Below are positions 7,081-26,639 of a stretch of 39,088 nucleotides of DNA, in pieces (positions within the stretch are counted from its first letter, which is position 1; every line of letters starts with the position of its first letter). The notes below the pieces were generated by a model. The model saw only the letters and a list, made by a program, of their open reading frames with translations. It made no database searches and was not told where the DNA came from. The DNA lies in the NCBI GenBank assembly GCA_030625565.1, contig DAOUQO010000002.1, positions 1 to 39,088 on the forward strand. Direction: 5' to 3'. The position numbers and the translations under genes were made by a program. The DNA is from Aliiroseovarius sp. (GTDB lineage: Bacteria > Pseudomonadota > Alphaproteobacteria > Rhodobacterales > Rhodobacteraceae).

Positions 7081-7118
7081 ATAGTTGTATAATTCGTTCG
7101 AATGAATTATACAACTAT
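7081..7118. promoter_or_regulatory. 38-bp palindromic operator upstream of the TetR operon
   Basis: The arms ATAGTTGTATAATTC and GAATTATACAACTAT are perfect 15-base inverted repeats. The eight-base centre extends the pairing except at one pair, giving a near-perfect 38-base palindrome. It begins 24 bases upstream of the TetR start codon, where the promoter would be expected, and contains AT-rich -10-like hexamers. TetR dimers bind such palindromes, so this is the probable operator. No other comparable palindrome lies nearby. Confidence 0.75.
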
Positions 7119-16140: not shown

Positions 16141-16947
16141 TCAGCTGGATTTTTCAGCTGTCTTTTCTCCCTCTTGGATATCCACGACAATCAATTGCAC
16201 GCCAGCGGCGTCCAGCATTCGTGCCGAAGCATCTTCTATTCTGTCGTCAGTGATGACGGCAGATATTCGTTCCAAACCGCAAAGGATTAGGCTGGAGCGC
16301 ATTTTGAATTTTGTTGAATCGACCAGTACGATCAGCTCATCCGCCTGATTAATCAATTTGTGTTCGGCTTGAATTAGTAATGGGTCCGCTTCCATTAGAC
16401 CAAGCGGACCTAACCCTTGCGCACCCATAAACATGCGCTTTGCATAGAAATTTCGGGTCACATCATTTTCAAAAGGCGACAATATTATGTTTTGCTCGCG
16501 GTAAATAACACCACCCGACAGCATTACGGTATTTTTGGAATTGTGCAGCAAATGCTCTGCGATCGGGAATGAATTGGTAAAGACCTGCAGCCGTGAACCG
16601 GCCAAATGATGCACCATTTGATAGGTCGTTGTTCCGCCATTGATAATTATCGGATCACCGTCTTCACACAATTCAACAGCGCGCTTCGCGATTGCGCTTT
16701 TTTGTATTGCGTTGGCGGATGCATTTACTTTGAACGTACGCCCGGCAAGACCAACAAATTGCGGTGGGTGCAAGGCTTCGGCCCCACCGCGCACACGCCG
16801 GAGCTTTTGCTCCAAATGCAGCGCCGCGATGTCACGACGGATGGTTGCCTCAGATGAACTTGTCAGCGCAACAAGCTCTTGCACCGTAGCAACAGGCTTC
16901 TCTTGCACAGCAGATAGAATCAATCGGTGGCGCTCAGCTTCAAGCAT
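16141..16947 (-). CDS. rhaR: DeoR-family repressor of rhamnose catabolism RhaR
   Basis: This 268-residue DeoR-family regulator has an N-terminal winged helix-turn-helix at residues 1-57 (ERHRLILSAVQEKPVATVQE, SEATIRRDIAAL, RRVRGGAEAL). A C-terminal sugar-phosphate sensor domain carries the phosphate-binding motif PIIINGGTTTYQMVHHL and VDSTKFKMRSSL. It should repress both rha operons until a phosphorylated rhamnose intermediate binds. I chose the ATG at 16947, with GGAG seven bases before it; an ATG 18 bases further up and a TTG 42 bases up are less good. It is divergent from rhaD, with two inverted operator-like sites between. Its role is known for the Rhizobium homologue. Confidence 0.88.
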   Translation of the reverse strand: MLEAERHRLILSAVQEKPVATVQELVALTSSSEATIRRDIAALHLEQKLRRVRGGAEALHPPQFVGLAGRTFKVNASANAIQKSAIAKRAVELCEDGDPIIINGGTTTYQMVHHLAGSRLQVFTNSFPIAEHLLHNSKNTVMLSGGVIYREQNIILSPFENDVTRNFYAKRMFMGAQGLGPLGLMEADPLLIQAEHKLINQADELIVLVDSTKFKMRSSLILCGLERISAVITDDRIEDASARMLDAAGVQLIVVDIQEGEKTAEKSS

Positions 16948-16990
16948 TTTCTCTCCAATTTTCATTGATGTTGGCGACAGAAAAGACACC

Positions 16991-17062
16991 TGTCAATCAA
17001 AAACAATCAATAGATGCCAAATCTGGTGATTCATGCGTGTTAATGATCGTTTTTGATTGACA
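16991..17062. promoter_or_regulatory. Divergent rhaR/rhaD promoter region with paired inverted operators
   Basis: TGTCAATCAAAAAC at 16991-17004 and its exact inverse GTTTTTGATTGACA at 17049-17062 form two identical 14-base half-sites, with outward-facing near-identity extending to about 22 bases. The arms are 44 bases apart (about four helical turns), which suits looping or paired binding by RhaR. Each arm carries TTGACA, a perfect -35 hexamer, one facing rhaD and one facing rhaR. Binding there would block both promoters at once. The -10 elements are not convincing by eye. Confidence 0.7.
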
Positions 17063-17126
17063 AGAGTCGAATTTACGCAGATTTTATCCGTAAGCTCAAA
17101 AGTAAAAATAGCCTAAGGAGTCAACC

Positions 17127-19229
17127 ATGGCCGACATATCGCAATCCAAGTCTCTTGAAAATTTGTGGGATGTCACAGCAGCCTCCGGGATGAGCGAAGC
17201 TGACAAATTACTGTATCGTTCAAATCTTCTGGGTTCAGACATGCGCGTCACAAATTATGGTGGCGGCAATACATCGGCAAAAGCGACCCAGACCGATCCG
17301 TTGACTGGTCAACCCGTCGAAGTGCTGTGGGTCAAGGGGTCTGGCGGTGATATCGGCTCCATTAAAATGGACGGGTTTGCAACGCTCTACATGGAAAAGC
17401 TATTAGCGCTTAAAAATATTTATCGCGGCCCCGAACATGAGGATGAAATGGTAGGTTTCCTGCCCCATTGCACCTTCAATTTAAACCCTAGGGCCGCATC
17501 AATTGACACGCCCTTGCACGCATACGTGCCCTACAAACACGTTGACCACGTTCACGCCGATGCAATTATCGCCATCGCGGCGTCGGAAAATTCACAAGAA
17601 TTAACGCAAGAAATTTTTGGCGATGACATTGGCTGGCTACCATGGCGCCGGCCCGGGTTTGAACTGGGGCTTTGGCTGGGGAAATTCTGCGCAGATAATC
17701 CAAATGCACGCGGTGTGGTTTTGGGCAGTCACGGGCTGTTCACTTGGGGCGATACGGCCGAAGAATGTTACGCAGTTACGCTTGAAATCATTAACCGTGC
17801 TTCGGTCTGGATCGAAAATAAGTCCAAAGGCGTTGCGCCTTTTGGCGGTGCGGTATGTGCGCCAATGTCCAAAGAGGACCGCGCAGAGTTTGCTGCTAAA
17901 ATCATGCCCGCCATTCGCGGAATGATCGGGGTGGATGAACGAAAAATCGGGCATTTCGATGACAGTGCGGCAACGCTAGAATTTGTCTGCTCTGCCCAAT
18001 TGCTGCCATTGGCGGCACTTGGAACCAGCTGTCCTGACCATTTCTTGCGGACCAAAATCTGCCCCTTAGTTGTCGATTTTGACCCTGAAAAGGGCGATGT
18101 GGACGCTGTCATTACCGGGCTTGAGGCCGCCATTAGTAACTACCGCGATGGTTATGCCGCGTATTACCAAAGATGTAAGATAGACACGTCCCCGCCAATG
18201 CGTGACCCTAATGCAGTTGTTTATCTGATCCCCGGTGTCGGTATGATTACCTTTGCCAAGGACAAGCCCACCGCCCGGATTTCGGCTGAATTTTACATCA
18301 ATGCAATCAATGTGATGCGCGGGGCGTCTTCTGTGTCCACCTATATAGGTCTGGACGAACAAGAAGCATTCAACATCGAATACTGGTTGTTGGAAGAAGC
18401 CAAATTGCAGCGCATGCCAAAACCAAAACCGCTGGCGGGTCAAGTTGCCTTGGTTACCGGCGGTGCTGGCGGCATTGGCAAGGCAAGTGCGGTGCGGTTT
18501 TTGCAAGATGGTGCTTGTGTCGTTTTGGCCGATATTGATCAAGACAGCCTGTCGGCGGCCAGCTCTGAACTTGCGGATATGTTCGGGGCGGACGCCGTCC
18601 ATGCCGCCATATTGGATGTAACCGATGAGGACGCCGTTCAGGCAACCTATAGAGACGCGGCAAAAACCTATGGCGGCATTGATATTCTAATTTCAAATGC
18701 CGGAATTTCGTCTTCGGCACCGATTGAAAATACCGAATTATCCATGTGGAACAAGAACATGGATATTTTAGTCAAAGGGTATTTCCTGGTTTCGCGCGAA
18801 GCATTCCGCATTATGAAAGTACAAGGCACCGGCGGCAGCATAATTTTTATTGCCTCAAAAAATGGCCTTGCCGCGTCGCCTAATGCCGCCGCTTATTGCA
18901 CGGCCAAAGCTGCAGAAATCCATCTGGCACGCTGTCTGGCGCTTGAGGGCGCCGCAGACGGAATTCGCGTCAACACAGTCAACCCCGATGCGGTGTTGCG
19001 TGGATCGAAAATCTGGACCGGCGAATGGCGCGAACAACGCGCCGCAGCTTACGCCATGCAGCCGACTGATTTGGAAGAACATTACCGGAAACGATCCTTG
19101 CTAAAACGAAGCGTTTTTCCAGAAGATATTGCCGAAGCCGCTTTCTTTTTGGCCTCAGAGCTGTCGTCAAAATCAACGGGCAACATTCTCAACGTCGATG
19201 CCGGCAATGCCCAGTCGTTCACACGCTAA
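17127..19229 (+). CDS. rhaD: Bifunctional rhamnulose-1-phosphate aldolase / short-chain dehydrogenase RhaD
   Basis: This 700-residue two-domain enzyme has an N-terminal half (about 25-425) that is a class II aldolase. It shows zinc-ligand histidines in DHVHAD (His141, His143) and GSHGLFTWGD (His202). It cleaves L-rhamnulose-1-phosphate to dihydroxyacetone phosphate and L-lactaldehyde. The C-terminal half (about 437-700) is a short-chain dehydrogenase, with NAD motif TGGAGGIG near residue 443, SNAGISSS, and catalytic YCTAK (Tyr590, Lys594). It should oxidise L-lactaldehyde. The fusion channels the reactive aldehyde and is known for this family (RhaEW/RhaD type). The ATG has AAGGAG eight bases upstream. 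It leads the rhaDI operon, opposite rhaR. Confidence 0.93.
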   Translation: MADISQSKSLENLWDVTAASGMSEADKLLYRSNLLGSDMRVTNYGGGNTSAKATQTDPLTGQPVEVLWVKGSGGDIGSIKMDGFATLYMEKLLALKNIYRGPEHEDEMVGFLPHCTFNLNPRAASIDTPLHAYVPYKHVDHVHADAIIAIAASENSQELTQEIFGDDIGWLPWRRPGFELGLWLGKFCADNPNARGVVLGSHGLFTWGDTAEECYAVTLEIINRASVWIENKSKGVAPFGGAVCAPMSKEDRAEFAAKIMPAIRGMIGVDERKIGHFDDSAATLEFVCSAQLLPLAALGTSCPDHFLRTKICPLVVDFDPEKGDVDAVITGLEAAISNYRDGYAAYYQRCKIDTSPPMRDPNAVVYLIPGVGMITFAKDKPTARISAEFYINAINVMRGASSVSTYIGLDEQEAFNIEYWLLEEAKLQRMPKPKPLAGQVALVTGGAGGIGKASAVRFLQDGACVVLADIDQDSLSAASSELADMFGADAVHAAILDVTDEDAVQATYRDAAKTYGGIDILISNAGISSSAPIENTELSMWNKNMDILVKGYFLVSREAFRIMKVQGTGGSIIFIASKNGLAASPNAAAYCTAKAAEIHLARCLALEGAADGIRVNTVNPDAVLRGSKIWTGEWREQRAAAYAMQPTDLEEHYRKRSLLKRSVFPEDIAEAAFFLASELSSKSTGNILNVDAGNAQSFTR

Positions 19230-19239
19230 GGATTAAATT

Positions 19240-20520
19240 ATGATTGATGCAAACCTGATCGAAGCAGACAATGCCAAACGCAAGGCAACACTGGCTAAAG
19301 ATTACGACGCTTTGGGGCACAATCTGGCGCGGCGCAATATTGACATCGAAATGCTGACCCAAAAAATATCGGGTTACGGCGTTGCGGTGCCTTCGTGGGG
19401 CGTTGGTACCGGTGGAACCCGTTTCGCCAGATTTCCAGGCGCAGGCGAACCGCGCCACATCTTTGACAAGCTTGACGATTGCGGGGTGATCAACCAACTA
19501 ACCCGCGCAACGCCGGATGTGTCGCTGCATATCCCGTGGGACAAGGCCGACCCTGCCGACCTGATCGCCAAAGCAAAACAAGTCGGGCTTGGGTTTGATG
19601 CGATGAACTCAAACACCTTCCAAGATCAGGTTGATCAAAAACATTCGTACAAGTTTGGTTCCCTTTCAAACACCGATGCCGCGACACGGGCGCAGGCGGT
19701 TGAGCACAACTTGGAATGTATCGAAATTGGAAAGGCGATCGGGTCAAAATCCTTAACAGTCTGGGTTGGTGATGGGTCCAATTTTCCGGGGCAAAGCAAC
19801 TTTACCGGCGCGTTTGAACGTTATCTAGACGGCATGAAGCAGATCTATGCCGGACTGCCCGCGGATTGGCGGCTGCTAACCGAACACAAGATGTTTGAGC
19901 CTGCATTCTATTCAACTGTGGTGCAGGATTGGGGCACAAATTACCTGATCGCTAAGGAGCTGGGCGAACAAGCGTTCTGTCTTGTCGATCTGGGCCACCA
20001 CGCCCCGAATGTAAACATTGAAATGATCGTCGCGCGCCTTATACAATTTGGCAAACTTGGTGGGTTTCATTTTAACGATTCAAAATATGGCGACGATGAC
20101 CTAGATACCGGCAGCATCGACCCATATCGTTTATTCCTGGTGTTTAATGAATTGGTCGAGGCTGAATTGCGCGACCCCAAGGGGTTCAACCCGTCCCACA
20201 TGCTGGACCAGTCACACAACGTAACTGACCCGATCGAAAGCCTGATGAACAGCGCTATGGAGGTCCAGCGGGCATACGCGCAAGCCCTGTTAGTGGACCG
20301 TACGGCGCTTGCCGGATATCAGGCAGAAAACGATGCGCTGATGGCCAGTGAAACCCTCAAAGTTGCCTTTCGGACAGACGTTGAGCCAATCTTGGCTATG
20401 GCCCGTCAGAAAAGCGGCGGCGCGATTGCACCGCTTTGGTGTTATCGGGCTTCGGGATATCGCGCACATGTATCTGAAATGCGGCCCGCTCAATTGGGGC
20501 TTGGCGGCGGCATCGTCTGA
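19240..20520 (+). CDS. rhaI: L-rhamnose isomerase RhaI (Pseudomonas/Rhizobium type)
   Basis: This 426-residue TIM-barrel isomerase belongs to the xylose-isomerase-like fold and the bacterial L-rhamnose isomerase type found in Pseudomonas and rhizobia rather than the E. coli RhaA type. It converts L-rhamnose to L-rhamnulose. Metal and substrate ligands are visible in LLTEHKMFEPAFY, CLVDLGHHAPNVNIEM and GGFHFNDSKYGDDDLDTGSI. The ATG at 19240 lies ten bases after the rhaD stop with AAGGA seven bases before it, so it is cotranscribed with rhaD. The gene ends convergently to a metallophosphoesterase gene; no strong terminator is visible in the 92-base gap. Confidence 0.93.
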   Translation: MIDANLIEADNAKRKATLAKDYDALGHNLARRNIDIEMLTQKISGYGVAVPSWGVGTGGTRFARFPGAGEPRHIFDKLDDCGVINQLTRATPDVSLHIPWDKADPADLIAKAKQVGLGFDAMNSNTFQDQVDQKHSYKFGSLSNTDAATRAQAVEHNLECIEIGKAIGSKSLTVWVGDGSNFPGQSNFTGAFERYLDGMKQIYAGLPADWRLLTEHKMFEPAFYSTVVQDWGTNYLIAKELGEQAFCLVDLGHHAPNVNIEMIVARLIQFGKLGGFHFNDSKYGDDDLDTGSIDPYRLFLVFNELVEAELRDPKGFNPSHMLDQSHNVTDPIESLMNSAMEVQRAYAQALLVDRTALAGYQAENDALMASETLKVAFRTDVEPILAMARQKSGGAIAPLWCYRASGYRAHVSEMRPAQLGLGGGIV

Positions 20521-20612
20521 CACAGGCAATCCACCGAAGAATAATACCTGTCAGATGACCTGTGGAACCCAAGCTAGGCGCATCAAGTTTGAAATGCGTC
20601 GGGGCCAAACAC

Positions 20613-21362
20613 TTATTCCACAAATACTGTCCGTGTCACCAGATCACCATGTTCACCCATTTGGTGCAGGTGATAGGCTGGGGCGGGCGCTTCGCCTTCC
20701 TCCAGCCCCGAAGGCATCCCCATCGAAGGGGCAGAGGTCACAATCGTGCCGTGCCAGGCCGTATGGGTCGCCAGATTGATATGGCCGCACAGGATGCGAT
20801 TGATGTTGGAATATTGCGCCACTACAGCCCCCAGATTTTCGCCGTTATCAAACCCGTCCGCATCCGCCGCTGCGGCACCAGTTTTCATGGGCACATGGTG
20901 GGTGAAGATAATGGTCGGCACGCTGGTATCGCTGGACAGATGGGTATTCAGCCAGTTCAGACGCTTGGGGCAAACGCGCCCGCCGACACCGTGATGACCC
21001 AAGCTGTCAAGCCCGATCAGGCGGATGGGAAAGCCTTCGACCAGATAGCTTAAGACCCCGCCAACCTCGTTTGCGGTGGCTTTGTCGGCAAAGGTGCCAA
21101 ACAGGTTTTGGCGTTCGTCATTCGGGCCGGGCACCAGCTTGTAAGGGCAGTTCAGCACGTCAAGCACCTCGCGGGCATGCATGCTGGCCTCGATTGTACC
21201 GTTTGCGGTGATATTACCGTTGATCACCACAAGATCGGGCTGCGGATCCAGTTGGTTAATGTGGGTTATGGTTTTGACCACATTGGCCAGCATTTTCACA
21301 CTAACCGGGCTGTCATCGCCCTTTTCGCCAATATGAAGGTCACTTATTTGTACGATACGCAT
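20613..21362 (-). CDS. Metallophosphoesterase (CpdA-like) with altered active-site motifs
   Basis: This 249-residue protein has the calcineurin-like phosphoesterase fold and resembles class III cyclic-nucleotide phosphodiesterases (CpdA). Motif I is intact (QISDLHIGEKG, Asp8 and His10) and the later HH in FTHHVPM is present. Three canonical motifs deviate: the usual GD reads NGN (VVINGNITANG), GNHD reads GPND (LVPGPNDERQ), and GHxH reads GHIN (LCGHINLATH). Several metal or catalytic ligands are thus replaced, so normal two-metal hydrolysis is doubtful. I chose the ATG at 21362 because MRIVQISDLH is the typical N-terminus; an in-frame start 81 bases earlier is possible, and the ribosome site (GGGA) is weak. 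It stands alone, convergent to rhaI. Confidence 0.8.
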   Translation of the reverse strand: MRIVQISDLHIGEKGDDSPVSVKMLANVVKTITHINQLDPQPDLVVINGNITANGTIEASMHAREVLDVLNCPYKLVPGPNDERQNLFGTFADKATANEVGGVLSYLVEGFPIRLIGLDSLGHHGVGGRVCPKRLNWLNTHLSSDTSVPTIIFTHHVPMKTGAAAADADGFDNGENLGAVVAQYSNINRILCGHINLATHTAWHGTIVTSAPSMGMPSGLEEGEAPAPAYHLHQMGEHGDLVTRTVFVE

Positions 21363-21488
21363 CTGGATATTCCCGACTTTATAGGTTTCACGCCAAGTAT
21401 ATTTCGGGGGGGTAGCCAAGCGCAAGTGGACGAAAGCGCCCATAATGGTAATATCGGGAAAAGCCTTATCCTGCGACGATATGGTACG

Positions 21489-21575
21489 CCACTGGAAAGG
21501 CCAATCTTAGGACCTTACAGGATTGAACTAAAGTGTTTGGCTGGGACAGTAGGGTTCCCAGTAAGTGGCTGTTTC
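21489..21575 (+). repeat. tRNA-Gln-derived direct repeat, copy B
   Basis: Positions 21489-21557 align without gaps to 29624-29692, the 3' end of the tRNA-Gln gene plus its downstream flank. I count about 61 identical of 69 positions, and most differences are transitions. From 21537 to 21575 it also matches copy A (1787-1825), including CCCAGTAAGTGGCTGTT, which is absent from the tRNA gene. It has the same orientation as the tRNA. It cannot be a tRNA because the 5' half and anticodon are missing. Confidence 0.75.
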
Positions 21576-21597
21576 GAACATTCACAGAACCCGTATA

Positions 21598-21632
21598 AAA
21601 GTTGCTCCGACGCAAACCAGTCGCGTCGGAGC
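21598..21632 (-). terminator. Rho-independent terminator of the Usp/symporter operon
   Basis: On the minus strand, immediately after the symporter stop codon, GCTCCGACGC and GCGTCGGAGC form a perfect ten-base stem (21623-21632 with 21604-21613) with a nine-base loop. A short T-rich tract (AACTTTTAT) follows. The position and direction fit termination of the symporter transcript. Confidence 0.75.
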
Positions 21633-21639
21633 CTGTTGC

Positions 21640-23193
21640 TTAATGCGTGAACTTCTTGATCTCGCCACTTTTCAGGCGTGAGGTGTAGGAGAAGAGCTCT
21701 TTCTTCACCACTTTCATCAGGAAGTAGAGGCAGAAGATGTTCACCACAGCCATGGCAAATATCGCGGCATCGGAGAAATCGATGACCGGGCCAAGGCTCG
21801 CGGCAGCCCCGATGACGATAAAGATGCAGAAAATGATCTTGAACGTCAGCTCGGAGGTTTTGCCTTCACCAAAAAGATACGTCCATGATTTCAATCCGTA
21901 ATAGGACCACGAAATCATGGTTGAGAAGGCGAAAAGCACAACCGCAATGGCAAGCACATAGGGGAACCAGCTGATGCTGGAACCGAACGCGGCAGAGGTC
22001 AGGGAAACGCCCGTATTTCCGTCAACGGTCGAAATCGCGTTGCCCGCTTCAGTTAGCAGGTAGTTGCCGGTTGTTGGGTCCACGATCAATTGCTGCGAGA
22101 TGACGATAACCAACGCTGTCATCGTACAGATGACCACGGTGTCGATCAGCGGCTCAAGCAAGGAAACGAACCCTTCGGTGATCGGTTCTTTGGTTCTCAC
22201 AGCCGAGTGTGCAATCGCTGCAGAGCCAACGCCGGCCTCGTTTGAAAAGGCTGCACGTTTGAACCCCTGGATCAAAGCACCGACAAAACCGCCAGCCACG
22301 CCAAGACCTGTGAAGGCACCTGTAAAGATCTGACCAAAGGCCCAACCGATCATATCGTAGTTCACGATCAGGATGATCAGCGCTGCACCGACGTAAAGGA
22401 TGCCCATGAACGGCACAACTTTTTCGGTTACGTTAGCGATGGATTTGATCCCGCCGACGATCACGGCAAAGACCGCGCCTGCGAAGATGATCCCCGTGAT
22501 CCAACCCGGATAGTCACCGACAATGCCCGAGATTTGAGCGTGCGCCTGGTTGGCTTGGAACATGTTGCCGCCGCCAAGAGCACCTAGAATACAGAAGATA
22601 GAAAACAGGACCGCCAGGAACTTACCGCCCGGCAGGCCCAATTCTTTGAAGCCCTTCGAGATGTAATACATTGGACCACCCGAGACGCTGCCGTCTGGGT
22701 ATTCATTGCGGTACTTCACGCCAAGCGTACATTCGGTGAATTTGGACGCCATTCCAAGAAGACCTGCAAGAATCATCCAGAACGTCGCGCCGGGTCCACC
22801 GATGCCGACGGCAACGGCAACACCGGCGATGTTTCCAAGACCAACGGTGCCCGACAGGGCCGTGGCAAGCGCTTGGAAGTGGCTCACCTCACCCGCATCA
22901 TTTGGGTCAGAATAATCACCTTTGACCAGTTGGATAGCATGCTTAAAGAAACGGAATTGAACAAAACCAAAGTACAAAGTGAAAATGGTGGCAGCGACGA
23001 CAAGCCACATCACGATCCACGGGAAGCTGGTCCCCGGAAATGGCGCAAAGATCAAGCCGACGAACGGGCCGGTTAGGTTTGCGAAGACCTGATTGACCTT
23101 TTCATCGATGCCCATCGCCTCCTGTGCGGCAAGCGGGCTTGAAGCCATGGCTGCAACCGTAGAAGTCAGCCAGAATTTTGAAATATTTTTCAT
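21640..23193 (-). CDS. Sodium:alanine/glycine symporter (AGCS family)
   Basis: This 517-residue inner-membrane transporter belongs to the alanine/glycine:cation symporter family. It has an N-terminal signal-like segment (MKNISKFWLTSTVAAMASSP) and about ten to eleven membrane helices. Family motifs are present: ALSGTVGLGNIAGVAVAV near residues 112-129, GGPMYYISKGF, and FKRAAFSNEAGVGSAAIAHS, the substrate-binding stretch. The usual substrates are L-alanine or glycine with Na+. The ATG at 23193 is nine bases after the universal stress protein stop, with AGGGA overlapping that stop, so the two are one operon. A strong terminator follows. The AsnC gene upstream on the other strand is the likely regulator. 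Substrate specificity is inferred from the family. Confidence 0.88.
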   Translation of the reverse strand: MKNISKFWLTSTVAAMASSPLAAQEAMGIDEKVNQVFANLTGPFVGLIFAPFPGTSFPWIVMWLVVAATIFTLYFGFVQFRFFKHAIQLVKGDYSDPNDAGEVSHFQALATALSGTVGLGNIAGVAVAVGIGGPGATFWMILAGLLGMASKFTECTLGVKYRNEYPDGSVSGGPMYYISKGFKELGLPGGKFLAVLFSIFCILGALGGGNMFQANQAHAQISGIVGDYPGWITGIIFAGAVFAVIVGGIKSIANVTEKVVPFMGILYVGAALIILIVNYDMIGWAFGQIFTGAFTGLGVAGGFVGALIQGFKRAAFSNEAGVGSAAIAHSAVRTKEPITEGFVSLLEPLIDTVVICTMTALVIVISQQLIVDPTTGNYLLTEAGNAISTVDGNTGVSLTSAAFGSSISWFPYVLAIAVVLFAFSTMISWSYYGLKSWTYLFGEGKTSELTFKIIFCIFIVIGAAASLGPVIDFSDAAIFAMAVVNIFCLYFLMKVVKKELFSYTSRLKSGEIKKFTH

Positions 23194-23202
23194 GATATGT
23201 CC

Positions 23203-23640
23203 CTATCCGACGACTGTGACGGGCACGTCTGCGTGCATCACAAGATTCTGAGTCGAGCTGCCGAAGATGCGCTTGGCGAAGCCATCCGAAGATGCGCGGC
23301 CAACGATGATCTGCGATCCTCCGTTTTCGACGGTGAGTTTGTTCAACGTCTCGGCGACATCGCCGTGGCGCACAAGACCGCTGGCTTTGAACCCAGCTTC
23401 TTGCAGCGCGGCAACTGCCGGTTCGACAATCCGCGCCATGGCAAGCGCGATCTCTTCTTCGCGGCGCTTGTGACGTTGTTCGTTCTCTTCCGGTGTTTGG
23501 AACGTGAATGGTGACCATTCGATGACGTAGATGGCAAGCAGCTCACAAGCATCAATCTTGGATGCCAAATCTTTTGCGAATGCAAGTGCGCGTTCACCGG
23601 TGTCTGTCCCGTCAAGTCCAATGACAATTTTGACAGTCAT
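23203..23640 (-). CDS. Universal stress protein (UspA family)
   Basis: This 145-residue single-domain UspA-fold protein starts MTVKIVIGLDGTDTGERALA, with the conserved Asp of the nucleotide site. It ends with IIVGRASSDGFAKRIFGSST, an imperfect version of the G-2x-G-9x-G(S/T) ATP-binding motif, then ADVPVTVV. The start ATG at 23640 has GGAGG five bases upstream, which rules out a 90-base-longer in-frame start. It is cotranscribed with a downstream sodium symporter. Usp proteins encoded with transporters (for example TeaD with the ectoine TRAP system) can regulate uptake, so it may modulate the symporter; this is an inference. Confidence 0.88.
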   Translation of the reverse strand: MTVKIVIGLDGTDTGERALAFAKDLASKIDACELLAIYVIEWSPFTFQTPEENEQRHKRREEEIALAMARIVEPAVAALQEAGFKASGLVRHGDVAETLNKLTVENGGSQIIVGRASSDGFAKRIFGSSTQNLVMHADVPVTVVG

Positions 23641-23833
23641 TTTGTCCTCCTTGTTCAGTTGGTTTTTTTGTTGGAGAGCGAATGCCCTCGGGTTGAGGCG
23701 GCCGAAATCAGATTGTTGATTCTCAATCACCTTAGTTTCAGTATCAGTGATAATTACTAGACATTGGACATCTATTCAGAAATATTGCAGTGTTTCTTCA
23801 TGCAGAATGGCCATTTGAAAGGTAAATTAACTG

Positions 23834-24280
23834 GTGGGCAGGGATTTAGATAGGATCGACCAAAGGATCCTTGAGGAACTGGAATTAGATGGGCGGCTTT
23901 CCATAGTGGAACTTGCGGCGCGTGTGAACCTGACAAATACGCCCTGTTCAGAGCGGGTTAAACGCTTGGAAAGATCAGGCTATATCAGCGGATACCGCGC
24001 CATTTTGAACATGGCAAAACTGGGTCTGGGGTATTTGACAGTAGTGCAAGTTTCACTTGTGGCGACCACCGGTGACAACTCGCTTGATACCTTCAACGAA
24101 GCGGTAAGCACTGTTTCTGAAATTGAGAATTGCTTGATGATCGCAGGTTCGTTTGACTACATGCTTACCATCCGCACGCGGGACATCTTGCACTTTCGAC
24201 AGGTGCTGAGCGAAAAGATCAACAAATTGCCAGGCATCCTCCAGACAAATTCCTTTGCTGTGATGGAAGTCGTGAAATAG
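23834..24280 (+). CDS. Lrp/AsnC-family transcriptional regulator
   Basis: This 148-residue regulator of the feast/famine family has a helix-turn-helix at about residues 6-60 (LDRIDQRILEELELDGRLSI, CSERVKRLERSGYISGYRA) and a C-terminal RAM (ligand-binding) domain (LTVVQVSLVATT, VSEIENCLMIAGSFDYMLTI). The start is a GTG at 23834; the preceding AAAGG is about eleven bases away, a little far. It is divergent from the usp/symporter operon by 193 bases, so it probably senses an amino acid and controls that operon. A second regulator of this family (29010-29477) sits next to the ectoine genes. Confidence 0.88.
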   Translation: MGRDLDRIDQRILEELELDGRLSIVELAARVNLTNTPCSERVKRLERSGYISGYRAILNMAKLGLGYLTVVQVSLVATTGDNSLDTFNEAVSTVSEIENCLMIAGSFDYMLTIRTRDILHFRQVLSEKINKLPGILQTNSFAVMEVVK

Positions 24281-24480
24281 GTTCAGGGCTTTGGAATTCC
24301 GGCAGGCTGGATCGCTCCGCTCTGCGACAACCAAATTGTAAAAAATATTGCATGGGTTGCACGTATCCACACCACTACAAAACAGAAAAACCTATTGCGC
24401 TGGGTTGCCTGATGGTGAAAAGCCGCCTTGATTTCACTTGGAACGGCCCCCCAAATTCAAGTTGGGTTAGCCTTGAAAAG

Positions 24481-24657
24481 TCATTTTTTGTCGCGTGCAG
24501 CTTTTTCTTCCTTTGTCAGTATGTTGTTCCAAACATTTTTGCTAATACCTAACTCGGCAGGCATGGGTTTGGTTTTACCAACACTGACTTTTCCACCTTT
24601 GTTCAGGAATTCCTGAATAAGGACATCATTTGTTACTTCTTTAGGAATCTGTTTCAT
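24481..24657 (-). CDS. Small uncharacterised protein
   Basis: This is a possible 58-residue, lysine-rich soluble protein beginning MKQIPKEVTNDVLIQEFLNK and containing KPMPAELGISKNVWNNILT, with a very basic end (KEEKAARDKK). No family is recognised. The ATG at 24657 has no good ribosome site; a TTG 36 bases upstream would add 12 residues. It is divergent from the ArsC-like gene by 104 bases. Support is the coding-like residue composition and the absence of any overlapping gene; treat as hypothetical. Confidence 0.45.
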   Translation of the reverse strand: MKQIPKEVTNDVLIQEFLNKGGKVSVGKTKPMPAELGISKNVWNNILTKEEKAARDKK

Positions 24658-24761
24658 AAAGAGAAGCTTATCGCTTACCTTACCCCCAAACAACAGTAGT
24701 TAATTCAAAGTACCTGCGATTTGTGTGAAGTTTCACGATCATCGCCAAAGGAGATTGCGAT

Positions 24762-25091
24762 ATGATAATTTATGGATTGGAGACCTGCCCAATTTGTCAC
24801 AAAGCCCGCAAGGCGTTAGAGGCCGCAGGCAAAGACATCAATTTCCGCGATGTCCGAGCCGAACCTCTGAGTGAGGCAGAATTGGCTGAATTGATTGCAG
24901 AATTCGGGGATCGGTTGGTGGATCGCACGACGAATGATTACCGAGCACTAAATCAATGGCTTAAAAATTCAGAGGCAGAGGCGCAGATTTCAGCCAAACC
25001 CAAAGTAATGGCACGCCCTGTAATACGCGATGGGGACAAATTTTATCTAGGCTGGGACACGGTAATTCAAGAAGCATTATTTCCAGGCTGA
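24762..25091 (+). CDS. ArsC/Spx-like thioredoxin-fold protein
   Basis: This 109-residue protein of the ArsC/Spx/YffB group (thioredoxin fold) has an N-terminal CPIC motif (MIIYGLETCPICHKA, cysteines 9 and 12) more like a glutaredoxin than the CxxxxxR of true arsenate reductases. FRDVRAEPL and the later KVMARPVIRDGDKFYLGWD fit the family. It may be a glutathione- or thiol-linked reductase; arsenate reduction is not supported by its surroundings. The ATG at 24762 has AAGGAG nine bases upstream. It appears to be a single-gene unit. Confidence 0.8.
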   Translation: MIIYGLETCPICHKARKALEAAGKDINFRDVRAEPLSEAELAELIAEFGDRLVDRTTNDYRALNQWLKNSEAEAQISAKPKVMARPVIRDGDKFYLGWDTVIQEALFPG

Positions 25092-25218
25092 TGCCTTGAA
25101 CCAAAATGCCCGGTCAAGGCCGTTCTCAATAACCGCCAGTGTGGGTTCTAAGCCGCCATCCGGCGCTACCGGCCCATTCCCGATATTTGCGAGTCGGCCC
25201 ATGCTGCAGTGCGGCCTC

Positions 25219-25257
25219 CCCAAAGCCGGAACGAACCAAAGGCTGTCCGGCTTTGGG
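25219..25257. other. Strong stem-loop in the gap between the ArsC-like gene and doeD
   Basis: CCCAAAGCCGGA at 25219-25230 and TCCGGCTTTGGG at 25246-25257 are perfect 12-base inverted repeats with a 15-base loop. The stem lies 12 bases beyond the doeD stop on the minus strand. The surrounding 177-base gap has further GC-rich short repeats (GCCATCCGGC, GAGTCGGCC). There is no T tract on either side. It may end transcripts of the two convergent genes or be a palindromic repetitive element. Confidence 0.6.
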
Positions 25258-25268
25258 CGAATGTATCG

Positions 25269-26639
25269 TTATCCCAGCACTTCGGCCACGGCTTCTTTGG
25301 CGATCGATACAACATGATCCACCTCGTCAGGGGTAATACAAAGTGGCGGGGCAAAGCCGATGATGTCGCCTTGGGGCATGGCGCGGGCGATTACATCACG
25401 CGAAGCCATCGCTCCGGATATTGCATAGCCGACTTTCTTCGCCGGATCAAAAAACCCTAGTGGTGATTTTGTCTCGGCAAACTCAACCGCGCACATCAGC
25501 CCTTCACCACGCACTTCGGCCACGTTGGGATGGTCAGCAAAGGCTGCCGTCAGCTGTTCCAACAAATAAGCCCCCGTTGTGCCCGAATTTTCCACCAGAC
25601 CCATTTCATCGATCAGTTTCAGGTTGGCAACACCAGCCGCCGCACCGATCGGGTGCGCTGAATAGGTCCAGCCATGGCCGATTGGGCCGTTTTCATCCGT
25701 GCCCTGCTCTAATACTTTCCACATTTTCTTGGACACAATCGAACCCGAAAGCGGCGCATAAGCCGAGGTCAGGCCCTTCGCGATTGTAATAAGGTCAGCT
25801 TCAATTCCATAATGATCGGACCCGAACATGGAACCAAGGCGCCCGAAACCTGTGACGACTTCGTCCGCAACCAACAAGATGTCATATTTCTTCAGCACTG
25901 CCTGAATAGCAGGCCAATAACCGGCAGGTGGGGGCACAATGCCGCCTGTGCCCAACACCGGCTCGCCGATAAAGGCTGCAACCGTATCTGGCCCCTCGGT
26001 TAGTATCATTTCTTCCAACTTGGCGGCGCAATCGGCTGAAAACTCTTCTTCGGACATGCCTGCGTCAGCCCGTCGAAGGTAGTATGGCGCTTCGGTGTGA
26101 ATGACCTGTGTCAGGGGTAGGTCAAATTTATTGTGGAACAATTCCAACCCAGTCAATGAGCCGGTCATAAGGCCCGAGCCGTGATAACCCCGCCAGCGCG
26201 AAATAATCTTTTTCTTCTTCGGGCGACCAAGGATATTGTTGTAATACCAGATCAGCTTGATGTTGGTTTCATTCGCATCCGACCCACTTTGGCCGTAATA
26301 AACCTTGGACATATTGTCAGGCGCACGATCCAAAATCATTTTGGACAGGGTAATCGAAGCCTCGGTTCCGTGACCCACATAGGAATGATAATAGGCCAAT
26401 TCATGCGCCTGCTTTGAAATTGCCTCGGCAATCTCGGTGCGGCCATAGCCAACATTCACACAATAAAGGCCGGCAAAGGCATCAAGCATTTTCCGATCAT
26501 CACGATCATAAATATATACGCCCTCACCACCCTTGATCACTCGTGTTGGTGTCTCACCGCGTGCGTGTTGGGCAAGGTGGGTCGAGGGGTGAAAAAAGTT
26601 TTCACGATCCCATTTTGCAAGTTGGTCATTGGTTAGCAT
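25269..26639 (-). CDS. doeD: Class III aminotransferase DoeD (diaminobutyrate transaminase)
   Basis: This 456-residue PLP-dependent class III aminotransferase has VYYGQSGSDANETNIKL (phosphate and ring contact) near residues 115-131, then SRWRGYHGSG, VADEVVTGFGRLG with the PLP-binding Asp, and ITIAKGLTSAYAP with the Schiff-base Lys288. In ectoine degradation the enzyme moves the amino group of L-2,4-diaminobutyrate to an acceptor, forming aspartate semialdehyde. Context assigns this: it follows doeA and doeB, twelve bases after the doeB stop. The family also includes beta-alanine and putrescine transaminases, so substrate preference is inferred. The ATG at 26639 has AAAGG about ten bases upstream. 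Confidence 0.83.
   Translation of the reverse strand: MLTNDQLAKWDRENFFHPSTHLAQHARGETPTRVIKGGEGVYIYDRDDRKMLDAFAGLYCVNVGYGRTEIAEAISKQAHELAYYHSYVGHGTEASITLSKMILDRAPDNMSKVYYGQSGSDANETNIKLIWYYNNILGRPKKKKIISRWRGYHGSGLMTGSLTGLELFHNKFDLPLTQVIHTEAPYYLRRADAGMSEEEFSADCAAKLEEMILTEGPDTVAAFIGEPVLGTGGIVPPPAGYWPAIQAVLKKYDILLVADEVVTGFGRLGSMFGSDHYGIEADLITIAKGLTSAYAPLSGSIVSKKMWKVLEQGTDENGPIGHGWTYSAHPIGAAAGVANLKLIDEMGLVENSGTTGAYLLEQLTAAFADHPNVAEVRGEGLMCAVEFAETKSPLGFFDPAKKVGYAISGAMASRDVIARAMPQGDIIGFAPPLCITPDEVDHVVSIAKEAVAEVLG

Follow-up and report, generated by a model that had tools for sequence, protein, structure and literature searches.

The window analysed here, a stretch of 39,088 nucleotides of DNA from Aliiroseovarius sp., encodes on its minus strand a protein of the metallophosphoesterase superfamily, P0001, in which four active-site residues are replaced. 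This protein is probably a pseudo-phosphodiesterase, with both metal sites dismantled, that has been retained, like VPS29, for a binding or scaffold role. Catalytic residues were lost while purifying selection on the gene continued, as is expected of a pseudoenzyme.

Active-site residues of P0001

Translation of the minus strand returned the reading frame, the coordinates and the three Asn-bearing motifs that an earlier note on this DNA had described. In this frame the motifs read ISDLH, VVINGNIT, LVPGPNDER, IIFTHHVP and ILCGHINLATH. The Pfam profile Metallophos (PF00149), whose cut-off is 21.5 bits, matched with 45.2 bits, covering residues 1-195 of 249 and profile positions 1-188 of 191. The best NCBIfam match was the SpdA family NF050112 (98.7 bits, below its equivalog cut-off of 400), and the CpdA-type 3',5'-cyclic-AMP phosphodiesterase NF008359 scored 81.4 bits, below its equivalog cut-off of 225. 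Judged by sequence, P0001 is a member of the metallophosphoesterase (calcineurin-like) superfamily fold and of the class III group of GpdQ, SpdA and Rv0805. An AlphaFold2 model, computed from a two-row alignment (P0001 and L002), reached a mean pLDDT of 40.4, and nothing in this work rests on it.

The gene and its active-site positions are as follows:

20613..21362, minus strand: gene of P0001, the putative pseudo-phosphodiesterase; 249 aa, ATG at 21362, TAA at 20613-20615
21333..21341, minus strand: D8-L9-H10, first metal motif, kept (homologue alignment)
21213..21215, minus strand: N50 (AAT), replaces the bridging Asp of GD (homologue alignment and codon comparison)
21123..21125, minus strand: P80 (CCG), replaces the metal-ligand Asn of GNHD (alignment with homologues and solved structures)
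21120..21122, minus strand: N81 (AAT), replaces the catalytic His of GNHD (alignment with homologues and solved structures)
20991..20996, minus strand: H123-H124, a His pair and candidate shifted ligands (His in 0 of 56 homologues at these positions; Rv0805 has His)
20895..20900, minus strand: H155-H156, both His of the HH motif retained; H155 corresponds to the ligand His156 of GpdQ (alignment)
20781..20783, minus strand: H194, first His of GHxH, kept (alignment; H195 of GpdQ)
20775..20777, minus strand: N196 (AAT), replaces the second His of GHxH (alignment; H197 of GpdQ)

The best solved relative (2dxl, 2zo9, 3d03) is listed in its entries as 'Phosphohydrolase', and we take it to be the glycerophosphodiesterase GpdQ. 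Residues 2-213 of P0001 align with it at an E-value of 1e-23 and the motif order is alike, while P0001 past residue 213 is unaligned. GpdQ binds its metals through D8, H10, D50, N80, H156, H195 and H197 and uses H81 in catalysis. Where GpdQ has D50, N80, H81 and H197, P0001 has N, P, N and N, that is, D50N, N80P, H81N and H197N relative to 2dxl/2zo9 (GpdQ numbering; 197 is 196 in P0001). Alignment with GpdQ and the homologues showed that the replacement of an Asp and two His by Asn, as the earlier note had it, is real (D50N, H81N and H196N), and that the first DxH (D8, H10) and the HH motif (H155, H156) are still present. The fourth change, N80P, had been missed: GPND carries Pro in place of the metal-ligand Asn. 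Set against the motif definition of active class III phosphodiesterases (PMC4222275), P0001 departs from three of the five motifs (GD to GN, GNH[D/E] to GPND, GHxH to GHIN) and agrees with D-x-H (D8, H10) and H/HH (H155, H156). Three metal ligands (D50, N80 and H196) and the catalytic H81 are replaced in total, and most of the other conserved frame is kept.

Conservation of the altered positions among homologues

Homologues were collected from 394 genomes of the family, 389 relative genomes, 390 of the order and 385 of the class; these sets overlap and were searched with differing E-value limits, and loci are listed for the best matches only. P0001 was matched by 62 rows, 58 of which covered at least 190 of the 249 positions, and 56 of these were neither P0001 nor its close relative (see below). 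The rows dropped as partial, L003-L006, are same-genus copies with canonical residues at every motif covered. All four (genomes G002-G004) break off where their contigs end or close to it, for which repeats or strain variation may be the reason.

In the 56 full-length homologues, D8, H10, D50, N80, H155, H194 and H196 are present without exception. H81 is kept in 54 of them, the other two having K and R, and H156 in 53, with Q in the remaining three. Since D50, N80 and H196 are changed in 0 of 56 homologues and H81 in only 2, the changes in P0001 do not represent chance variation. We also compared catalytic with other conserved columns. Where 15 canonical rows agree at 90% or more, P0001 is changed at 4 of 9 catalytic columns versus 2 of 25 others (Fisher p 0.03), and among strictly invariant columns at 3 of 8 versus 0 of 10 (Fisher p 0.07). 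Catalytic columns thus changed more than others, and the loss is centred on the active site, although the statistics are modest. Three homologues (L021, L022 and L023) carry Gln for the second His of HH, together with a His pair in the loop past the conserved Asp.

Viral contigs yielded only seven proteins, matching the family profile over the first 82-103 residues only. Phage records gave 2 weak matches with 22% identity, in records labelled Salmonella, and each of the 467 matching plasmid records was below 60% identity.

A second copy and purifying selection

An exact-peptide scan of 84,980 species genomes, which may skip records from the genome of the window itself or from a very close neighbour, found one relative of P0001, in a "Marinosulfonomonas" metagenome-assembled genome (contig WGBJ01000346.1). 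The gene is rare. The Marinosulfonomonas protein is 94% identical to P0001 (234 of 249 residues) and all four changes are identical. The earlier note had proposed looking for an orthologue with the same three Asn changes; this contig supplies one, and it has N80P as well.

The two genes differ at 79 of 747 nucleotides, 66 of them third positions. Three methods gave a dN of 0.026-0.027 and a dS of 0.48-0.52, corresponding to a dN/dS of about 0.05. At N50, P80 and N196 the two genomes use different but synonymous codons. As there are only two sequences with the changes and 234 of 249 residues are identical, conservation of the four residues between them is weak evidence by itself. It is the low dN/dS of the whole gene, taken with open frames and synonymous turnover, that sets decay and sequencing error aside. 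The comparison argues strongly against both and shows the gene to be under strong purifying selection.

In a maximum-likelihood tree of 58 rows, whose bootstrap had not fully settled, P0001 and its relative formed a 100/100 clade with a stem of 0.91 changes per column and tips of about 0.025. This pair is nested in a 100/100 group whose six other members are canonical and come from genomes of the same family. The simplest account would be one loss from an active ancestor, with fast change followed by renewed constraint.

The relative's genome (G1029) also holds a canonical paralogue, L112, which is 41% identical and keeps D50, N80, H81 and H196. It lies in a four-gene stretch common to G007 (88-98% protein identity) and adjoins an ABC permease gene. 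At both L042 and L112 an ABC-transporter permease gene is adjacent and an FA-hydroxylase-type gene is nearby. This arrangement suggests a role of the canonical paralogue L042/L112 with an imported substrate. In the window's own genome, rated 100% complete, only P0001 matched the group at E-values up to 1, and none of the four other Metallophos genes there is close to it. A search of the same genome with PF00211 found no class III adenylate cyclase.

Genomic context and transcription

The gene of P0001 is flanked by rhaI, on the plus strand and convergent, and by a Na/alanine symporter gene. The surroundings include the following features:

21363..21454, minus strand: leader shared with the relative, 92 bases; 83% identity over 95 aligned columns, one indel
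21489-21557: 69-bp copy of tRNA-Gln (88%), the last 20 tRNA bases plus 49 bases downstream
21604..21632, minus strand: terminator-like hairpin, 12 pairs, then T-rich; 3' of the Na/alanine symporter and upstream of the P0001 gene
29673-29747: tRNA-Gln
1787-1823: shorter tRNA-Gln copy, about 20 bases of the tRNA end

Pfam matches in the rhamnose region comprised an aldolase/short-chain dehydrogenase, a sugar kinase, a sugar ABC transporter, a DeoR regulator and, below threshold, a sugar-isomerase-type barrel; the rhamnose gene names come partly from the earlier note and are otherwise our own assignment. The gene does adjoin rhamnose genes and a tRNA-derived repeat, the copy at 21489-21557, as had been stated earlier. 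A tie to rhamnose itself did not hold up: the gene is convergent with rhaI, and its neighbourhood in the relative's genome is a different one. There the orthologue adjoins a sulfotransferase-like ORF (named by sight). When window positions 16141-26639 were compared with that genome at the DNA level, the P0001 gene and its leader matched (89%), and the only other match was one of 102 bases to the canonical paralogue. Four stretches of other family genomes contain the symporter (G005, G017 and G013) or rhaD (G022), and the P0001 gene is in none of them. Judged from its surroundings, the gene looks accessory, outside the rhamnose operon.

The copies at 21489-21557 and 1787-1823 also match each other ahead of the tRNA part. 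The tRNA-Gln copies look like what successive integrations at tRNA-Gln would leave behind; between the two fragments lie the rhamnose genes and the P0001 gene. Elsewhere in the window, 38 bp at 7081-7118 match their own reverse complement at 95% and adjoin the start of a TetR-type regulator gene, a possible operator.

The shared leader at 21363..21454 is probably the 5' UTR and promoter. A start 27 residues longer, at an ATG at 21443, was rejected, as the relative has an indel there that breaks the frame. Co-transcription with the symporter gene is unlikely because of the hairpin at 21632-21604; the terminator scan gave two terminator-like sites versus 1.1 in shuffles. The sigma-70 scan found no minus-strand site before the P0001 gene, which counts against a promoter of its own. 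Nevertheless, the gene probably forms a transcription unit by itself, starting from this leader.

Comparison with known systems

In SpdA of Sinorhizobium, hydrolysis of 2',3'-cNMP is reported together with experiments in which chelators were without effect and mass spectrometry gave no metal (PMC4222275). SpdA is a class III protein like P0001, reported active without metal; according to the legend of Figure 1 it carries all five class III motifs (PMC4222275), whereas P0001 is without three of the five.

Rv0805 of M. tuberculosis (PDB 2hy1, 2hyo) is homologous to P0001 with E-values of 2e-8 to 2e-7. Its N97 aligns with P80, the Ala of the 2hyo N97A chain being in that column. Mutation of N97 alone is reported to abolish catalysis and to lower metal occupancy, and catalysis-independent effects of Rv0805 are reported too (PMC3776917, PMC13001264). 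Unlike P0001, wild-type Rv0805 has a full site and is active, and N97A is one engineered change versus four natural ones.

VPS29, like P0001, has a natural bridging Asn. It is described as an inactive scaffold with weak metal binding (Zn Kd estimated above 250 uM), although its crystals held two metals despite that Asn (PMC3101248). Thus, N50 alone need not stop metal binding. VPS29 differs from P0001 in being eukaryotic and in belonging to another branch of the superfamily, and we liken the two from published descriptions.

Interpretation and rival explanations

In the reading that we favour, each metal site of P0001 would keep two strong ligands, D8 and H10 in one and H155 and H194 in the other. 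With two per site, P0001 would no longer bind two metals stably, nor could it use the metal-hydroxide attack usual in these enzymes. What remains of the pocket probably binds, without turning it over, a ligand that carries phosphate, or else a partner protein; P0001 would then act as a ligand sink, a sensor or a scaffold. The earlier proposal of a CpdA-like fold whose metal site is damaged is upheld, here in a maintained orthologue pair; its further suggestion that the protein has become a binding or sensor protein is, we infer, the most likely outcome.

Since SpdA is reported to be metal-free (PMC4222275), a metal-independent hydrolase is the main rival. P0001 would then still be an enzyme, metal-independent or with a single metal, whose substrate would be a readily cleaved phosphodiester, for example a 2',3'-cyclic nucleotide, and the remaining His and Asp residues would do the chemistry. 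The earlier note had likewise suggested a single bound metal or action on an unusual bond, and the report on SpdA lends weight to the second of these. That the best NCBIfam match of P0001 is a protein active without metal speaks for this, as does the retention of D8, H10, H155, H156 and H194, and a new activity would be in keeping with strong constraint after a long stem. However, SpdA has the class III motifs that P0001 has lost, the catalytic His of P0001 is an Asn, and Rv0805 is inactive with the N97A change alone; we therefore regard this explanation as rather unlikely. A separate and improbable rival is that the metal site was rebuilt with shifted ligands, for example His123/His124 or Asp82, to give a normal or near-normal metalloenzyme. 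H123 and H124 do stand at columns without His in all 56 homologues, and the relative keeps both. Yet Rv0805, an ordinary member, has His aligned with H123/H124, and L014, L021-L023 and L082 have a His pair three columns on with their metal ligands kept. His in the same loop of Rv0805 and five homologues means that a loop His does not imply a new site.

P0001 might also be a dead subunit that pairs with an active paralogue from its group or competes with it. G1029 does hold both the degenerate gene and a canonical one, but the complete genome of the window shows no other group member, and we hold such a regulatory role to be quite improbable. Least probable is a dead gene in early decay, or a sequencing or assembly error. 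Four lost catalytic residues, the long stem and the rarity of the gene might be read that way. Against it, all changes recur in two separate assemblies, the frame is open in each, dN/dS is low, synonymous turnover has occurred within three of the altered codons, and the long stem precedes the split of the two copies. The codon comparison between the two genomes contradicts both decay and error.

A bolder reading is that P0001 is a naturally metal-free metallophosphoesterase homologue that has taken on a new function. It could be a receptor that binds a cyclic nucleotide or another phosphodiester without turnover or, on the lines of the metal-independence reported for SpdA, a hydrolase that does without the two-metal centre. 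We put this forward tentatively, as a possibility on the unlikely side.

Significance

To our knowledge, most of the pseudoenzymes described for the metallophosphoesterase fold, VPS29 among them, are eukaryotic. Among the matches listed for the literature on such pseudoenzymes, titles and abstract starts named no bacterial class III pseudo-phosphodiesterase, which is not proof of absence. P0001 would provide such a case in bacteria and in class III: the gene lost four active-site residues and stayed under strong selection afterwards. Canonical relatives serve as natural controls; they occur in the same bacterial family and, in one instance, in the very genome that carries the altered gene. P0001 thereby offers a clean test of whether the fold can function when its two-metal centre is gone, which the metal-independence reported for SpdA had already put in question.
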